A stretch of DNA of 45,174 nucleotides from contig JAFWSS010000235.1 in assembly GCA_017524385.1 (NCBI GenBank), positions 1 through 45,174 of the forward strand, given 5' to 3'. This stretch comes from Prevotella sp. (GTDB lineage Bacteria; Bacteroidota; Bacteroidia; Bacteroidales; Bacteroidaceae). The notes beneath the pieces are model-generated. The model made no database searches and was not told where the DNA came from. It saw only the letters and a list, made by a program, of their open reading frames with translations. Position numbers and translations under genes: made by a program. The stretch's first letter is position 1, and each line of letters opens with the position of its first letter. Shown one piece after another: positions 2,994 to 8,657 of this stretch.

Positions 2994-3611
2994 ATGAAGA
3001 AAACATTTTTGACATTTCTTGCAGCCGTGACCTTGATGTTGTCGAGCTGTATGACAACTGGACTCGGGACAACCAACAGTGCAACAGGCAATGTGCTGAG
3101 TAGTGTGCTTGGCAGTGTGTTGAGTAGCGTGTTGTTAGGTGGAACGACTTTTGACCAGTCGGGCATTCTTGGTAGTTGGAACTACAATGCTCCTAGTGCG
3201 GCATTTACGACCGAACAGGCTCTGACAAAGGCCGGAGGTACTGCCATGATTGCCAACATGGCTTCGTCGCTGGCAAGTAACTACAGCAACATCGGAATCA
3301 ATCGTAGCAACACTTCCTTCTCGTTCCTTGACGGCAACAAGTTCTCGGCCAAGGTGAATGGCATCCCTTTCAGCGGGACCTATGCTTACAACTCCCAAAA
3401 CGGTGAAATCACACTCAAGACAGCTACGGAGACCATTAAGGGCAACGTAACAAAGACAGAGAAAGGAATGGGACTGATGTTTGACTCCACACAGATGGTC
3501 AACATCCTTCAGAAAGAAGGCAAGGTCAGCAACACAGCTGCTGTTCAAGCCGTCAGCAAGCTTGCCAAGAGTGCCAACGGTGCTCGTGTAGGCTTTGAAC
3601 TTACAAGATAA
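2994..3611 (+). CDS. DUF4923-type lipoprotein (205 aa)
   Basis: A lipoprotein signal peptide (MKKTFLTFLAAV, then LSSC with lipidated Cys20) leads to a Gly/Ser/Val-rich linker (GNVLSSVLGSVLSSVLLGG) and a folded domain with alternating polar strands (ILGSWNY, FSAKVNGIPFSGTY, GEITLKT). The pattern matches DUF4923-type lipocalin-like lipoproteins of Bacteroidales, whose function is unknown. It should be anchored in the outer membrane or periplasm. ATG 2994 is chosen because it begins the signal peptide; the frame is open upstream to 2913 without coding character. It is followed by a strong terminator and is probably monocistronic. Confidence 0.75.
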   Translation: MKKTFLTFLAAVTLMLSSCMTTGLGTTNSATGNVLSSVLGSVLSSVLLGGTTFDQSGILGSWNYNAPSAAFTTEQALTKAGGTAMIANMASSLASNYSNIGINRSNTSFSFLDGNKFSAKVNGIPFSGTYAYNSQNGEITLKTATETIKGNVTKTEKGMGLMFDSTQMVNILQKEGKVSNTAAVQAVSKLAKSANGARVGFELTR

Positions 3612-3651
3612 ACTTACTTGTTCTTATAAGAACCCACATGTGGAAAGAAAG

Positions 3652-3700
3652 GGTGGGCGAAAACTGATGCCTAAACATCAACTTTCGCCCACCTTTGATG
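3652..3700 (+). terminator. Rho-independent-type terminator after the DUF4923 gene
   Basis: GGTGGGCGAAA (3652-3662) is perfectly complementary to TTTCGCCCACC (3683-3693), with an inner TGATG/CATCA extension closing a CCTAAA loop. A short T tract follows (TTTGATGGATT). It lies about 40 bases after the stop codon at 3611. Confidence 0.75.
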
Positions 3701-4057
3701 GATTAATAAAATCTGAATATCAAACTGTCATTTGTACTTCGGCTTTGAAAGCACCCAAAGCTCGGAACGCTGGTAAGGATTCATCAACGTTCCACAAACA
3801 GGTCATACAATGTATTTGATAGGTGGACAACACTGGCAACCTCCCTTGCATTTCACGTCGTTGTTACCATATCCAATTGGATGTAGTGTATCTTGTTGTG
3901 TATCTTGCTTGCGACAAAGGTTTCTATCATATTTTGGAAGTCCTCTTCATCAGTTTTTGTTATTATTTGGAAGATACAAGAAAGATGTGTTGTTTCCATT
4001 TTATGGTATTGGAGTTTGGGTGGTAATTAACAATAGTTTAGCATAATAATATTGAAA
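3701..4057. other. AT-rich intergenic stretch upstream of the DUF262 pair
   Basis: No gene is supported here. Short overlapping frames exist (for example 3810-4046 and 3823-4026), but they resemble no family and are interrupted in all frames. Base composition shifts to AT-rich towards the right, matching the DUF262 genes. TAGTTTAG at 4034-4041 is a one-mismatch match to a -7 box about 17 bases before the start, without a well-placed -33 element. The region could be the regulatory and insertion boundary of the two-gene island, or an eroded gene. Confidence 0.5.
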
Positions 4058-5443
4058 ATGGGAAAAAATAAAGTTGAACTTAATATTTTAAATTTGGAAG
4101 ATATATTTAAATTAACCTTAGTAATTCCAGATTATCAGCGTATATATTGCTGGGATAAAGATACTTTGCTGCAATTACTCGATGATTTGATGGATAATCA
4201 ACAGTTGAAACAATATAGATTAGGAAGTGTAATCTTAAATAAGAAAGATAATAAATTTGAAATTGTTGATGGCCAGCAAAGACTAGTTTCATTGACCCTG
4301 CTATTATGTGCATTGAAATACTCTGGCAAACTCCCACTCATTGATGCACATTTTGAGAATATCAAATCTCAAAAGTATATAAGCTATAACTATCACTGCA
4401 TTCAAACTTACATTCAAAATCAGAATAGCCTTGATGAAAAATCAAAAAGAGAAAAATGGGTTAAGAATCTCTTGTCACAGGTTGAATTTAGTGTTTTGAT
4501 TATCAGTCCAAATAATCTTGACCTTGCGTTTACGTTCTTTTCAAATACCAATTCTCGTGGTGTTCCTTTGAGTGATTTCGATCTTCTGAAGGCCCATCAC
4601 CTTAGATTCCTTCCAATCAAAAGTCAACAGAGACATCTTGCCATGCGTTGGAATCAAATGGTTTTAAAAGCTGATAATTCTGTTAATGGAGATGTTGTTG
4701 AAGAAAGAGATTATTATCGAACAATAGCTATTTATATCTATGGATTACGTCGTTGGTTAAACAAACGCCCTCTTAAAGAATGGGAAGAGTATCATGTAAA
4801 GAAGGAATTTGAATCAGCGTTGGTTATTGATGAGATACCTCCGTTTGGTGAACGTTTCTGGTATAAAGAACCTATCCAAGGAGGTTCACACTTCTTCGCA
4901 TATGTCGAGCATTTTGTAGAACGATTCAAACAGTTCCGTCGCTTGCCAGAATATTATTATCCCGGAAAAGACATTAATGACAAAGAAAGTAACCTTGATT
5001 TGGATGAAAAGCCATATGGTATACATATGCTAACGGGAGAGTCTCATGAATGGTTTCGAGATGCTATTGAAGCTTTGTTGTTTGCTTATTATCTTAAGTT
5101 TGGTATTGAATACATTAGTGAAGTTTTAGTTTTAATTACTCGTAGACTTTCTCATTATAGATTCCAACAGGGACGGATTTACTATCATAAGTTTATGGAT
5201 GAAAGTGTGGGTGAAACAGAAATTGCAATGATTATAGATCGTGCTTCATCACCAACATTTGTTTTAGCAGATCTCCTTAAGAGTGTAAAGCGACTCCCTG
5301 CCGTAGAATTCAGTGATACGTCGCCGATCAAGAAGAGATATGCCAACAAAGTTGAGAGATGTGTTCAGCCGCTATTGAAGAAGATGTCATCACGAACAGT
5401 AAAAGATTTTTTTAATGACAAGATTTTTAAAATCAAGAAATAA
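4058..5443 (+). CDS. DUF262 protein A, GmrS-like, lacking a nuclease domain (461 aa)
   Basis: The N-terminal half is a DUF262 (ParB/GmrS-like NTP-binding) domain. It shows IPDYQRIYCWD (23-33), a short strand LGSVIL, the signature VDGQQR ending at residue 75, and NTNSRG (163-168) followed by DFDLLKAHHL. The C-terminal half is helical and lacks the [I]EH-x-P motif of DUF1524 nucleases. GmrSD-type proteins use DUF262 for nucleotide binding and DUF1524 for cleavage of modified DNA, so this looks like a regulatory or recognition subunit. ATG 4058 is chosen; TTG 4052 is the alternative. The TAA stop overlaps the ATG of the next gene, implying coupled translation. The AT-rich codon use suggests horizontal acquisition. 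Confidence 0.8.
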   Translation: MGKNKVELNILNLEDIFKLTLVIPDYQRIYCWDKDTLLQLLDDLMDNQQLKQYRLGSVILNKKDNKFEIVDGQQRLVSLTLLLCALKYSGKLPLIDAHFENIKSQKYISYNYHCIQTYIQNQNSLDEKSKREKWVKNLLSQVEFSVLIISPNNLDLAFTFFSNTNSRGVPLSDFDLLKAHHLRFLPIKSQQRHLAMRWNQMVLKADNSVNGDVVEERDYYRTIAIYIYGLRRWLNKRPLKEWEEYHVKKEFESALVIDEIPPFGERFWYKEPIQGGSHFFAYVEHFVERFKQFRRLPEYYYPGKDINDKESNLDLDEKPYGIHMLTGESHEWFRDAIEALLFAYYLKFGIEYISEVLVLITRRLSHYRFQQGRIYYHKFMDESVGETEIAMIIDRASSPTFVLADLLKSVKRLPAVEFSDTSPIKKRYANKVERCVQPLLKKMSSRTVKDFFNDKIFKIKK

Positions 5444-7614
5444 TGAAAAAGATAATAGATGAAACCAAAAATGTAAGAAGTTACAGTCCTCAGCGTGTTG
5501 CTGAAAGTAATTATAAGTTTTCCATTCCAATTTATCAGCGTTTATTTGAGTGGAATAAGGAGACCATCTACACACTTCTTGATGGAATACTTGTTTCCAT
5601 GGTTAAGAATAAAACTGAAGACTACTATGTTGGCATGTTAACTTCTACCAAGATTGAGAATAATGAATTAGTCTTGGTTGATGGTCAGCAGCGTTTTACT
5701 GTCATGACTCTATTGGCAATTACATTTATGCATAGTAACCTCCAGTCGGAAAAATGGAGAAACTTCCTACTTATAAATGGTGAGGCACGACTTGATTTTG
5801 AATCTAGAGATTCTGACATTGAATTTCTCAAAAAGATTGCAAGTGAGAAGAGCTTTTATAAAGATGTTTTAAAATATACGAATACTGATGTGATGGATAT
5901 TCCCCAAAAGTTGTCTTGCATAAACAAGAAGATGGCAGCAGGATTGAATTATATCAAATCATATCTAAGTTCTATTAATGAGCAATTAAGGCGCCTTGAA
6001 TATGGAAAAGAATATTCACCTGACATTTGCAATAAAATGTCTTCATTTATTTATGAGCATCTGAAGTTTTTCATAACTCAATTGCCAGATTATGAAACTA
6101 AAGATTTGAACTTGTATTTCGAGCGTATGAACTCTGCTGGTAAGAATCTTGAAAGTTATGAGATTCTTAAGGTTAATATGCTTAACAGAATTCACAAAGA
6201 GCACCCAAAAGACTATAAGTATTACGTCAAGGCATGGGATGTTGTCGCCGATATGGATACTCGTGTCTTTATTCGTAGGTCAGGCAAGAAAGAAAAGGCA
6301 ACCACTTTTCGAAAACGTTGTCTTGCTGCATTGGAAATCATAAGAAATCCTATGCCTATCAAGGGTATGTTTAAAAAAGGTGATGATAATTGCGTGATTA
6401 ATGCTGCTTTTAGTAAGAGTGATGATCAACAAGAGGTAGAGTTTGGAAGTCGAAGAAATACCATAAGAGCAATAATTCGTAGGGAATTAGAAGTGAAGGC
6501 TCCTTCTGATGATGACCATAGAGATGTACCTTTCATTTCTTTGCTTACTTTTCCAAGATTTCTTCTTCAGGTTCTTTATTACTTTTCATATTACAAAATT
6601 ACTGATAACAACTGTAAGAAAAATGTAAAGAATGAAGAAGATTTCAAGGTGAACGAATTCTTCAATGAGAGCAATTTATTATCAACATTTGACCAATATC
6701 TCTCAGTGGATCAATATCTTGATTTTGTTGATACCATGTTTGCCCTGCGTGTGCTTTATGATTTCTATGTCATTCGTATCAAGAGCAACGATGATTCATA
6801 CACTCTCTTGATGTCAAGAGGGTTGAGGGGAGACTTCAGTGATGATGATGATAATGATGATGACAGTAAAATAGATTTTGCTAAACTTCGCGTATTTCAG
6901 TCAATGCTCTATGTGAACTCTGTTAATGTAACTTATTATCGTTGGTTACCCGGATTGCTTCATTTTGTTTATAAAGCAATCTCTTGCGGTGCAAATAAAG
7001 ACCGAGTAGCTCCAATCAAATTGCTAGAGCATCTTAAGGAACTTGATAACAATACCCATATTGAAGATTTGAATGATAAAAGTGATGATAAAAACCTTGA
7101 TACTTTATCATATAGATTTATTGATCGTTATTGGTTTTGGCGTTTGGACTATTATCTTTGGGAGAGGGTTGTTGAAGATAATATTAAGAACCTCAATAAT
7201 CAAATCGCCAAGAACTACCGGTTCCGTCGTAACCGTTCCATAGAACATCTTCATCCACAAAATGAGAATAATAATGAGAAATGGAATGATGCACTTAAAG
7301 TCAATTCATTCTATAATCTAGCAATGATTTCTTCTTCATTCAACTCCACACAAAGTAATGATTCTGTTCGGATAAAATTCGCTAGAATAGCAGATACAGT
7401 CAACGACTTAGAGAGTCTCAAGTTGTATGATATGTATATTAGTGCTAATAAAATGGAAAACCGGTGGACACCTACCTTGGCTCAAAAACATGGTGAACGA
7501 ATGATGCAAATACTCATAGATTCTTTCCCTGATATTCAAGAGAATAAGGGCATCCGTGAACAACTCGAAAACATCAAAAGAAACAACAATGACCTTATGA
7601 ACAAAATTGACTAG
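5443..7614 (+). CDS. DUF262 protein B with C-terminal DUF1524/HNH-like domain, GmrSD-like (723 aa)
   Basis: The protein starts with a full DUF262 domain: IPIYQRLFEWN (28-38), YVGML, VDGQQR ending at residue 84, and FERMNSAGKNL near 226-236 followed by YEILKVNML. A long helical middle region contains an acidic patch (about 463-480, GDFSDDDDNDDDSK). Near the C-terminus is IEHLHPQ (600-606, His602 and His604), followed by FYNLAMISSSFN and an RIKFARI segment, the pattern of DUF1524/HNH-like nucleases (EHxxPQ, then NL-x-L-x8-N). Together with protein A it forms a two-gene unit resembling type IV restriction systems of the GmrSD class, which cut DNA carrying modified cytosines. Target and nucleotide are not known. 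No partner methylase, integrase or tRNA is nearby. Confidence 0.8.
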   Translation: MKKIIDETKNVRSYSPQRVAESNYKFSIPIYQRLFEWNKETIYTLLDGILVSMVKNKTEDYYVGMLTSTKIENNELVLVDGQQRFTVMTLLAITFMHSNLQSEKWRNFLLINGEARLDFESRDSDIEFLKKIASEKSFYKDVLKYTNTDVMDIPQKLSCINKKMAAGLNYIKSYLSSINEQLRRLEYGKEYSPDICNKMSSFIYEHLKFFITQLPDYETKDLNLYFERMNSAGKNLESYEILKVNMLNRIHKEHPKDYKYYVKAWDVVADMDTRVFIRRSGKKEKATTFRKRCLAALEIIRNPMPIKGMFKKGDDNCVINAAFSKSDDQQEVEFGSRRNTIRAIIRRELEVKAPSDDDHRDVPFISLLTFPRFLLQVLYYFSYYKITDNNCKKNVKNEEDFKVNEFFNESNLLSTFDQYLSVDQYLDFVDTMFALRVLYDFYVIRIKSNDDSYTLLMSRGLRGDFSDDDDNDDDSKIDFAKLRVFQSMLYVNSVNVTYYRWLPGLLHFVYKAISCGANKDRVAPIKLLEHLKELDNNTHIEDLNDKSDDKNLDTLSYRFIDRYWFWRLDYYLWERVVEDNIKNLNNQIAKNYRFRRNRSIEHLHPQNENNNEKWNDALKVNSFYNLAMISSSFNSTQSNDSVRIKFARIADTVNDLESLKLYDMYISANKMENRWTPTLAQKHGERMMQILIDSFPDIQENKGIREQLENIKRNNNDLMNKID

Positions 7615-7742
7615 AAAAATAGCAAGTGAATGTTTCTTATTGAAGAAAATACAATGTGATAAATGTTTAAAAGTAACACACCCAATCTTGCTATCCGGTA
7701 TGCATATTATCCCAATTAAAATTCCAGTGTAGAAGTGGCTTA

Positions 7743-8657
7743 TTACGGTTTCTTCAGCGATGCGATGTATTTCGAGGGCTGAAGGCCAGCATGTTTCTTG
7801 AAAAAACGGGTAAAGTGCTGAGGGTATTCGAAGCCGAGGGTGTCGGAAGCCTGGGTGGCTGTGAGGCCGCCGACCAGCAGGCTCTTGGCGCGGTCGACAA
7901 GAAAGCGCTGGATAATCTGTGTGGGACTCTCACCAGAGACACTTCGCACCACATCGCCGAAATAGCTGGGCGACAGGCAGAGTTCGGAGGCACAATATTT
8001 CACGGTGGGCAGGCCATGCTGACGTTGCAAGCCGCGCTCGTAATAGCTGGTGAGTACCCGATGGAAACGCGAAAGCAGGTCTCCTTGGCGGCGGGCGGCA
8101 TCCTGAAATTGTCGTTGATAGAACAGCAGGGCGTAGTCGCACAGCAGCAGGATGTAGTCCTGTAGGATGCGGTCGGTCTGTGGCAACTGCTCGCGGTGCT
8201 GGATGAAGCGCCTGATCATCCACATCAGTTGCCACAGCAGCTGTTTCTCGCCCTCAGTGGTGTGCAGCGCCTCGTTCACGTTGTAGGAGAAGTAGTGATA
8301 GTCGTGTTGCCGTTGCTCGAATGCCGTACCGCGCATGAACTCCGCTTCGAAGTGCAGCGTCCAGCCGTGGTATACATTGCGTGTGCCGTCGTCTGCCTTG
8401 CCGATGACCTGTCCGGGCGAGGCCGCCGTCAGCGAGCCTTTCGACGTGTCATAGCCGCCCATGCCGTAGGTGGCGTCGGCGGGAAAATTGTCCTGAACGA
8501 AAAAGGCATACACATCTCCCATCTTGTTCAGCGTGTGGGCTATCGGCCCCAGTTCGTCGAAGTGGACGACGCTCACCATCGGGTGATACGTCTCGGCTCC
8601 TACACTCTGTGCGTAGTCGTTCGCGTGGTAGAGGTAGAGATAATTCTTTGTTATCAT
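7743..8657 (-). CDS. AraC-family transcriptional regulator (304 aa)
   Basis: The last 100 residues form a double helix-turn-helix of the AraC/XylS type: KYCASELCLSPSYFGDVVRS (first HTH), GESPTQIIQRFLVDRAKSLL, then ASDTLGFEYPQHFTRFFKKH and GLQPSKYI. The N-terminal 200 residues are a cupin-like sensor region with no recognisable ligand motif. The gene is divergent from a reductase, hydrolase and acetyltransferase operon that it probably controls. A consensus promoter lies so close to the ATG at 8657-8655 that the mRNA would have almost no 5' leader (see the promoter entry). The next Met is at residue 27 and would cut into the sensor domain. Confidence 0.85.
   Translation of the reverse strand: MITKNYLYLYHANDYAQSVGAETYHPMVSVVHFDELGPIAHTLNKMGDVYAFFVQDNFPADATYGMGGYDTSKGSLTAASPGQVIGKADDGTRNVYHGWTLHFEAEFMRGTAFEQRQHDYHYFSYNVNEALHTTEGEKQLLWQLMWMIRRFIQHREQLPQTDRILQDYILLLCDYALLFYQRQFQDAARRQGDLLSRFHRVLTSYYERGLQRQHGLPTVKYCASELCLSPSYFGDVVRSVSGESPTQIIQRFLVDRAKSLLVGGLTATQASDTLGFEYPQHFTRFFKKHAGLQPSKYIASLKKP

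Follow-up and report, generated by a model that had tools for sequence, protein, structure and literature searches.

What can a DUF262 protein that lacks a nuclease do beside a full-length DUF262-DUF1524 protein that has one? The question is raised by two adjoining genes, here called A and B, at positions 4058 to 7614 of a 45,174-nucleotide stretch of DNA from Prevotella sp. (assembly GCA_017524385.1, contig JAFWSS010000235.1; this whole stretch is called the window below). It seems quite probable to us that A and B, as one subunit each, make up a type IV restriction system of the GmrSD family and the TgvAB kind, in which B cuts and A gates, with modified DNA as the probable target. This architecture has already been described, and the window pair is one more, ordinary member of it, found in Prevotella as GTDB defines the genus. 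The features on which the argument is built are as follows.

4058..5443, plus strand: gene A, the nuclease-less partner (TgvA-like) with DUF262 and DUF7834, 461 amino acids (open reading frame, translation, Pfam, A-subunit clade at 100/100)
4103..4603, plus strand: DUF262 / GmrSD_N domain of A, A16-182, with QR, DGQQR and FxxxN (Pfam, motif positions)
4625..5293, plus strand: DUF7834 domain of A, A190-412 (PF25202; in the model of A from the relative L114, this domain continues the alignment with the middle region of DndI)
5443..5443, plus strand: one-base overlap of the A stop (TAA) and the B start (ATG) (sequence)
5443..7614, plus strand: gene B (TgvB-like) with DUF262, a helical linker and a DUF1524 nuclease, 723 amino acids (open reading frame, Pfam, structure model)
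5509..6174, plus strand: DUF262 / GmrSD_N domain of B, B23-244 (Pfam)
7081..7509, plus strand: DUF1524 / GmrSD_C His-Me nuclease domain of B, B547-689 (PF07510 and conserved residues)

Gene A begins with the ATG at 4058 and ends with the TAA at 5441-5443, an in-frame TTG lying two codons further 5′ at 4052, and gene B runs from the ATG at 5443-5445 to 7614. A preliminary description of the locus had given these coordinates and the one-base overlap, and reading of the open reading frames bears them out, base 5443 being common to both genes. It had also placed DUF262 in both proteins and a DUF1524 nuclease motif in B only, and the Pfam search and the motifs agree: PF03235 (DUF262) is matched by A with an E-value of 6.7e-31 and by B with 1.5e-23, and PF07510 (DUF1524) is matched by B (9e-8; 32.6 bits against a cut-off of 23), with no match to it in A. 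Such E-values are nowhere near what chance would give. What had been overlooked is a second domain in A, DUF7834 (PF25202; 1.1e-19, 71.6 bits against a cut-off of 27), which forms its C-terminal half, so that A is not DUF262 alone. The QR (A27-28, B32-33), DGQQR (A71-75, B80-84) and FxxxN (A161-165, B226-230) motifs are found in both proteins, and the EHLHP motif lies at B601-605. Among the 54 relatives introduced below, all 44 A proteins that were aligned have an unchanged DGQQR (11 relatives being left out of that alignment), and E601, H602, P605, N625, N634 and K645 of B are likewise unchanged in every one of the 49 B proteins aligned (six left out, with B missing or incomplete). BLASTP of A against B gives a good alignment over 72 DUF262 residues only, at 36% identity; thus, by sequence, the two are distant paralogues. 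NCBIfam gave no match for either protein, and B matched no sequence in the PDB up to an E-value of 10, while the best PADLOC match of both is HEC-06 (A, 5e-25; B, 9.2e-17). No mention of DUF7834 was found in the literature searched.

Does B fold as its motifs suggest? The predicted structure (mean predicted local distance difference test score, pLDDT, 81.1) has the DUF1524-like fold on which the idea of a paired system depended, and its closest folds and best alignments are those of SspE, DndI and BrxU, nuclease region included. On the A side, the model is that of A from the relative L114, which is 41% identical to window A.

A and B are a conserved, real pair. An alignment-based profile scan of named genomes found 54 relatives of A, where an earlier scan with A alone had found none. 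In 52 of the 54, B is the next gene downstream of A, and the other two (L116 and L140) end within A at the end of the sequence; homologues of A and B thus occur together, as the preliminary description had supposed. The B homologue stands on the same strand, from -65 to +33 bases after A, in 51 of the 54, and in L135, where A is split over two frames, it follows directly after the second piece. Among 301 genomes of the family, A was matched in 30 and B in 12 (E ≤ 1e-10); the ten closest A matches, the window included, all have an adjoining B, and every B match is at most about 1.3 kb from an A-like match. A sample taken by DUF7834 only gave eight of 395 genomes of the phylum Bacteroidota, seven above the cut-off. 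Besides the window, five of seven are A-B pairs, and the two weakest are single proteins with DUF262 and a nuclease motif (L162 1451-3184 and L163 3457-5232), placed on the B side of the DUF262 tree. In a plasmid collection, A has matches in 887 records and B in 873, mostly from Klebsiella. Five of these records were opened and all have the pair, two of them beside type I restriction-modification (RM) genes, one as hsdM-hsdS-A-B-hsdR. In one opened plasmid, of Segatella copri DSM 18205 (L054 5557-8954), A is split by an IS1380-family transposase gene and B looks full length; in L127, also, A is in two pieces.

The two genes have been passed on as a unit. A DUF262 tree was built from 26 selected pairs together with the two single-chain proteins. 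In it a 100/100 branch separates A and B into two clades, and several groupings seen in one clade return in the other. For A as for B, the sister of the window protein is that of L095, an uncultured Prevotella (100/98 and 100/96). What L095 has in common with the window is the pair and not the flanks, and an open reading frame near its pair looks like a relaxase gene. Distances among A proteins and among B proteins are correlated: r is 0.85 over 54 pairs and 0.75 when the 49 pairs of the window's kind are taken by themselves, while shuffles of the 54 reach at most 0.38.

How is the pair related to systems in print, which are compared here as far as the consulted sections of the cited papers describe them? 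For TgvAB (PMC11411939), both genes, both DGQQR motifs and the nuclease residues of TgvB are required, phages with modified cytosines are the targets, and homologues in Bacteroidales are listed. The window pair resembles it in having co-directional adjoining genes, the nuclease-less DUF262 gene first and the DUF262-DUF1524 gene second, QR, DGQQR and FxxxN in both, and the His-Me residues H602, N625 and N634 in B only. DUF7834 is present in window A and, among the plasmid pairs, in each of the four A proteins that are complete (two of them beside type I RM genes), TgvA (VC1767) being known from its description. Unlike the five-gene form of TgvAB, which lies inside a type I RM operon, the window pair has no hsd genes around it, its neighbours being a DUF4923 gene and an AraC-type regulator; since 1,341 tgvAB matches are reported against 79 of the five-gene form (PMC11411939), hsd surroundings are not defining for TgvAB. 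GmrS1/GmrSD2 of Escherichia coli ECOR17 (PMC12373910), which needs both proteins and the nuclease site and is blocked by Ip3 of T4, is similar by its description: two genes, DUF262/ParB_n in both and the nuclease in one only. GrwAB of the Vibrio cholerae WASA lineage (PMC12137116) likewise consists of two DUF262 proteins, one with DUF1524, and both are needed. Its order is reversed, however, the nuclease protein GrwA coming first; the extended C-terminus of GrwB contains several additional domains, and GrwB and TgvA are called distinct outside DUF262. The GrwAB type was rejected for the window pair, with its order of A then B and an A of only 461 amino acids, and a split GmrS plus GmrD was rejected as B holds both domains. 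B alone has the DUF262-linker-DUF1524 layout and, in its model, the fold of the single-chain GmrSD proteins BrxU, SspE, DndI and HEC-06. Unlike for these single nuclease proteins, a second, nuclease-less DUF262 protein is always beside B in the relatives that can be judged, and because of this constant pairing with A it is unlikely that B works without a second DUF262 protein.

In view of the conserved pair and the nuclease fold of B, the preliminary description had the right picture of an asymmetric two-protein system. The newness it implied did not hold, and a novel asymmetric architecture is rejected, as the arrangement is already in print as TgvAB, GrwAB and ECOR17 GmrS1/GmrSD2. Of the two known forms it had set against the pair, a fused GmrSD and a split GmrS plus GmrD, the split one is doubtful: the annotation of the original CT596 system as separate GmrS and GmrD is stated to be an error, the system consisting of one GmrSD protein (PMC12373910). 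Three two-gene groups are published among 15 common enterobacterial GmrSD groups, two-gene GmrSD systems are summarised in a review (PMC12409362), and the occurrence of DUF262 proteins next to GmrSD homologues was already reported in 2015 (PMC4619093), again as far as the consulted sections go.

By what way did the pair reach its present place? One further feature is to be listed here.

3612..7740, strand not assigned: low-GC stretch between two conserved genes, unlike the relatives' DNA, probably acquired (G+C content, GC, and DNA comparison)

The GC is 34.1% in A and 34.4% in B against 48.3% for the window. DNA similarity to the relatives' flanking genes ends near 3611 and returns near 7733-7767, and the two flanking genes, a DUF4923 lipoprotein-like gene on one side and the AraC-type regulator on the other, sit at separate places in relatives. 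Low GC, the break of similarity and the separated flanks fit acquired DNA, and the stretch was probably acquired. An intact empty site was not found: the flanking genes never stood together in 12 relatives' regions, several of which reach contig ends, and these regions had no A or B match above the applied cut of 38% identity. Scans of the window with Rfam (at the gathering threshold) and for tRNAs gave no matches, tblastn of A against 50,697 phage records gave none at 1e-5, and viral contigs, scanned by exact peptide patterns only, gave no relative. A phage-type lysozyme gene (PF00959, 1.4e-41) lies at 337-888 of the window, 3.2 kb upstream of the pair. The source assembly, made up of 272 contigs, has a size of 5.05 Mb and a contamination of 6.56%; it is larger than the listed genomes of the same genus (2.5-4.1 Mb), and the host assignment of the window could be affected. 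On a separate contig of the assembly there is another DUF262 arrangement (L003 211-2568), a 396-amino-acid open reading frame, which we take to be methylase-like, followed by a 387-amino-acid DUF262 protein with an HNH-like end. Genes for a WYL-domain regulator and a DEDD-type exonuclease recur just upstream of A in relatives (L101, L120, L123, L125, L138 and others). Each accounts for 11 of 72 upstream open reading frames, and a PLD-type protein for 3 of 72 upstream and 5 of 55 downstream. These counts come from a Pfam tally of 127 of 189 listed open reading frames, nearly all on the strand of the pair, and should not be read as unbiased rates. Of the 54 loci, 22 have one or more of the three clusters, and the window pair has none of them beside it.

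How would such a pair work? What the sequence and the models give are the domains, the intact motifs in both DUF262 domains, the intact nuclease motif in B only, the strict pairing, common descent and co-inheritance. By analogy with the published relatives, from which the need for both proteins, the gating by nucleoside triphosphate (NTP) and the modified target are taken, B would be the effector: its DUF262 domain would bind and hydrolyse NTP, and its C-terminal His-Me (DUF1524) domain would cut DNA, most likely DNA with modified bases. A, a nuclease-less paralogue with DUF262 and a helical DUF7834 region, probably forms an asymmetric complex with B and licenses it to cut incoming DNA, through target sensing or through NTP turnover at its own NTP site; we infer both this physical complex and the sensing or licensing role. 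Some observations weigh against such a mechanism. Correlated A and B trees indicate shared inheritance, not contact. The window pair is on a sub-branch apart from the plasmid pairs linked to type I RM genes, so that it does not have to act on glucosylated cytosine. The two single-chain DUF262-nuclease proteins match DUF7834 weakly, and this domain is thus not wholly exclusive to A. The full-length fold matches have root-mean-square deviations of 9 to 16 Å, so that the placement of domains is different or wrongly modelled.

Could A be, instead, a shield? B has the full single-chain layout and might in principle recognise and cut modified DNA alone, with A guarding it from phage inhibitors, for example injected T4 Ip proteins, or holding it together, and overcoming a phage inhibitor is indeed named as one possibility by the authors of TgvAB (PMC11411939). 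We consider this unlikely. DGQQR substitutions in TgvA alone abolished activity (PMC11411939), and GmrSD2 overexpressed by itself did not protect, not even from T4 without ip2 and ip3 (PMC12373910), so that in the relatives put to the test A does more than shield B, as far as the consulted sections report them; the invariance of DGQQR in the aligned A proteins points the same way. The adjoining, overlapping genes also recall a toxin-antitoxin module, B being a DNA-damaging toxin and A its antidote, and the ECOR17 pair is toxic when strongly expressed; that toxicity, however, comes from joint induction of both genes, the opposite of what an antidote would do (PMC12373910, same limit), and A is a paralogue of B with intact NTPase motifs, all of which leaves little room for such a module. 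Nor do we give much weight to a decayed or inactive remnant: low GC, the distance from other defence genes and the interrupted A of two relatives (L054 and L127) are in its favour, but both window frames are open and of full length, with the invariant motifs intact.

A last alternative sharpens the sensing role: the mark on the DNA would be read by A itself, through an extra reader domain at its N-terminus in many relatives, and B would be a generic nuclease. Support for it comes from the N-terminus of A. DGQQR stands past residue 150 in 39 of the 54 A relatives (L146 among them probably has a wrong start) and not in 14 (L136 among them begins at the sequence end), while the L127 fragment is without the motif. 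Thirty-four of the 39 match one profile, which was built from 20 of those 34. This first domain (L114 8542-8970 and 33 further A proteins) has about 140 residues and no Pfam family, H49, E51, H60 and E62 are invariant in 19 of 19 aligned, and its predicted fold bears a weak resemblance to that of YbjN-type proteins or of the McrB reader. A second domain is common to L098 and L142, and L104 has a third one or a very distant relative of the second. The A cores of L098 (7895-9652), L103 (8914-10254) and L104 (1093-2844) are 75-84% identical, yet they bear one domain, none and another, respectively, joined to the core at the same boundary in the L098 and L104 types. Exchange of target-reading domains among such A proteins is possible, and exchangeable N-terminal domains at a fixed boundary on near-identical cores suggest that A is the specificity subunit. 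We regard a mark-reading A with a generic B as a tentative possibility, and would stop short of favouring it over the gating by A proposed above.

What does the pair mean for the family? Two-gene GmrSD systems might be modular, with a constant A core (DUF262-DUF7834) and the B nuclease, and with interchangeable N-terminal domains of A setting the DNA mark to be attacked; the window pair would then be a pared-down form that lacks any domain of this sort, in a deep branch rich in Bacteroidota and apart from the one with the plasmid-borne, type I RM-linked pairs. We offer this as a conjecture that is easier to doubt than to adopt. The TgvAB and GrwAB papers (PMC11411939, PMC12137116), in the sections consulted, leave open why a two-protein GmrSD system should require a DUF262 partner that has no nuclease, and the relatives' A proteins, with a conserved core and an N-terminal domain that is exchanged or missing at one constant junction, are a direct handle on whether A sets the target.
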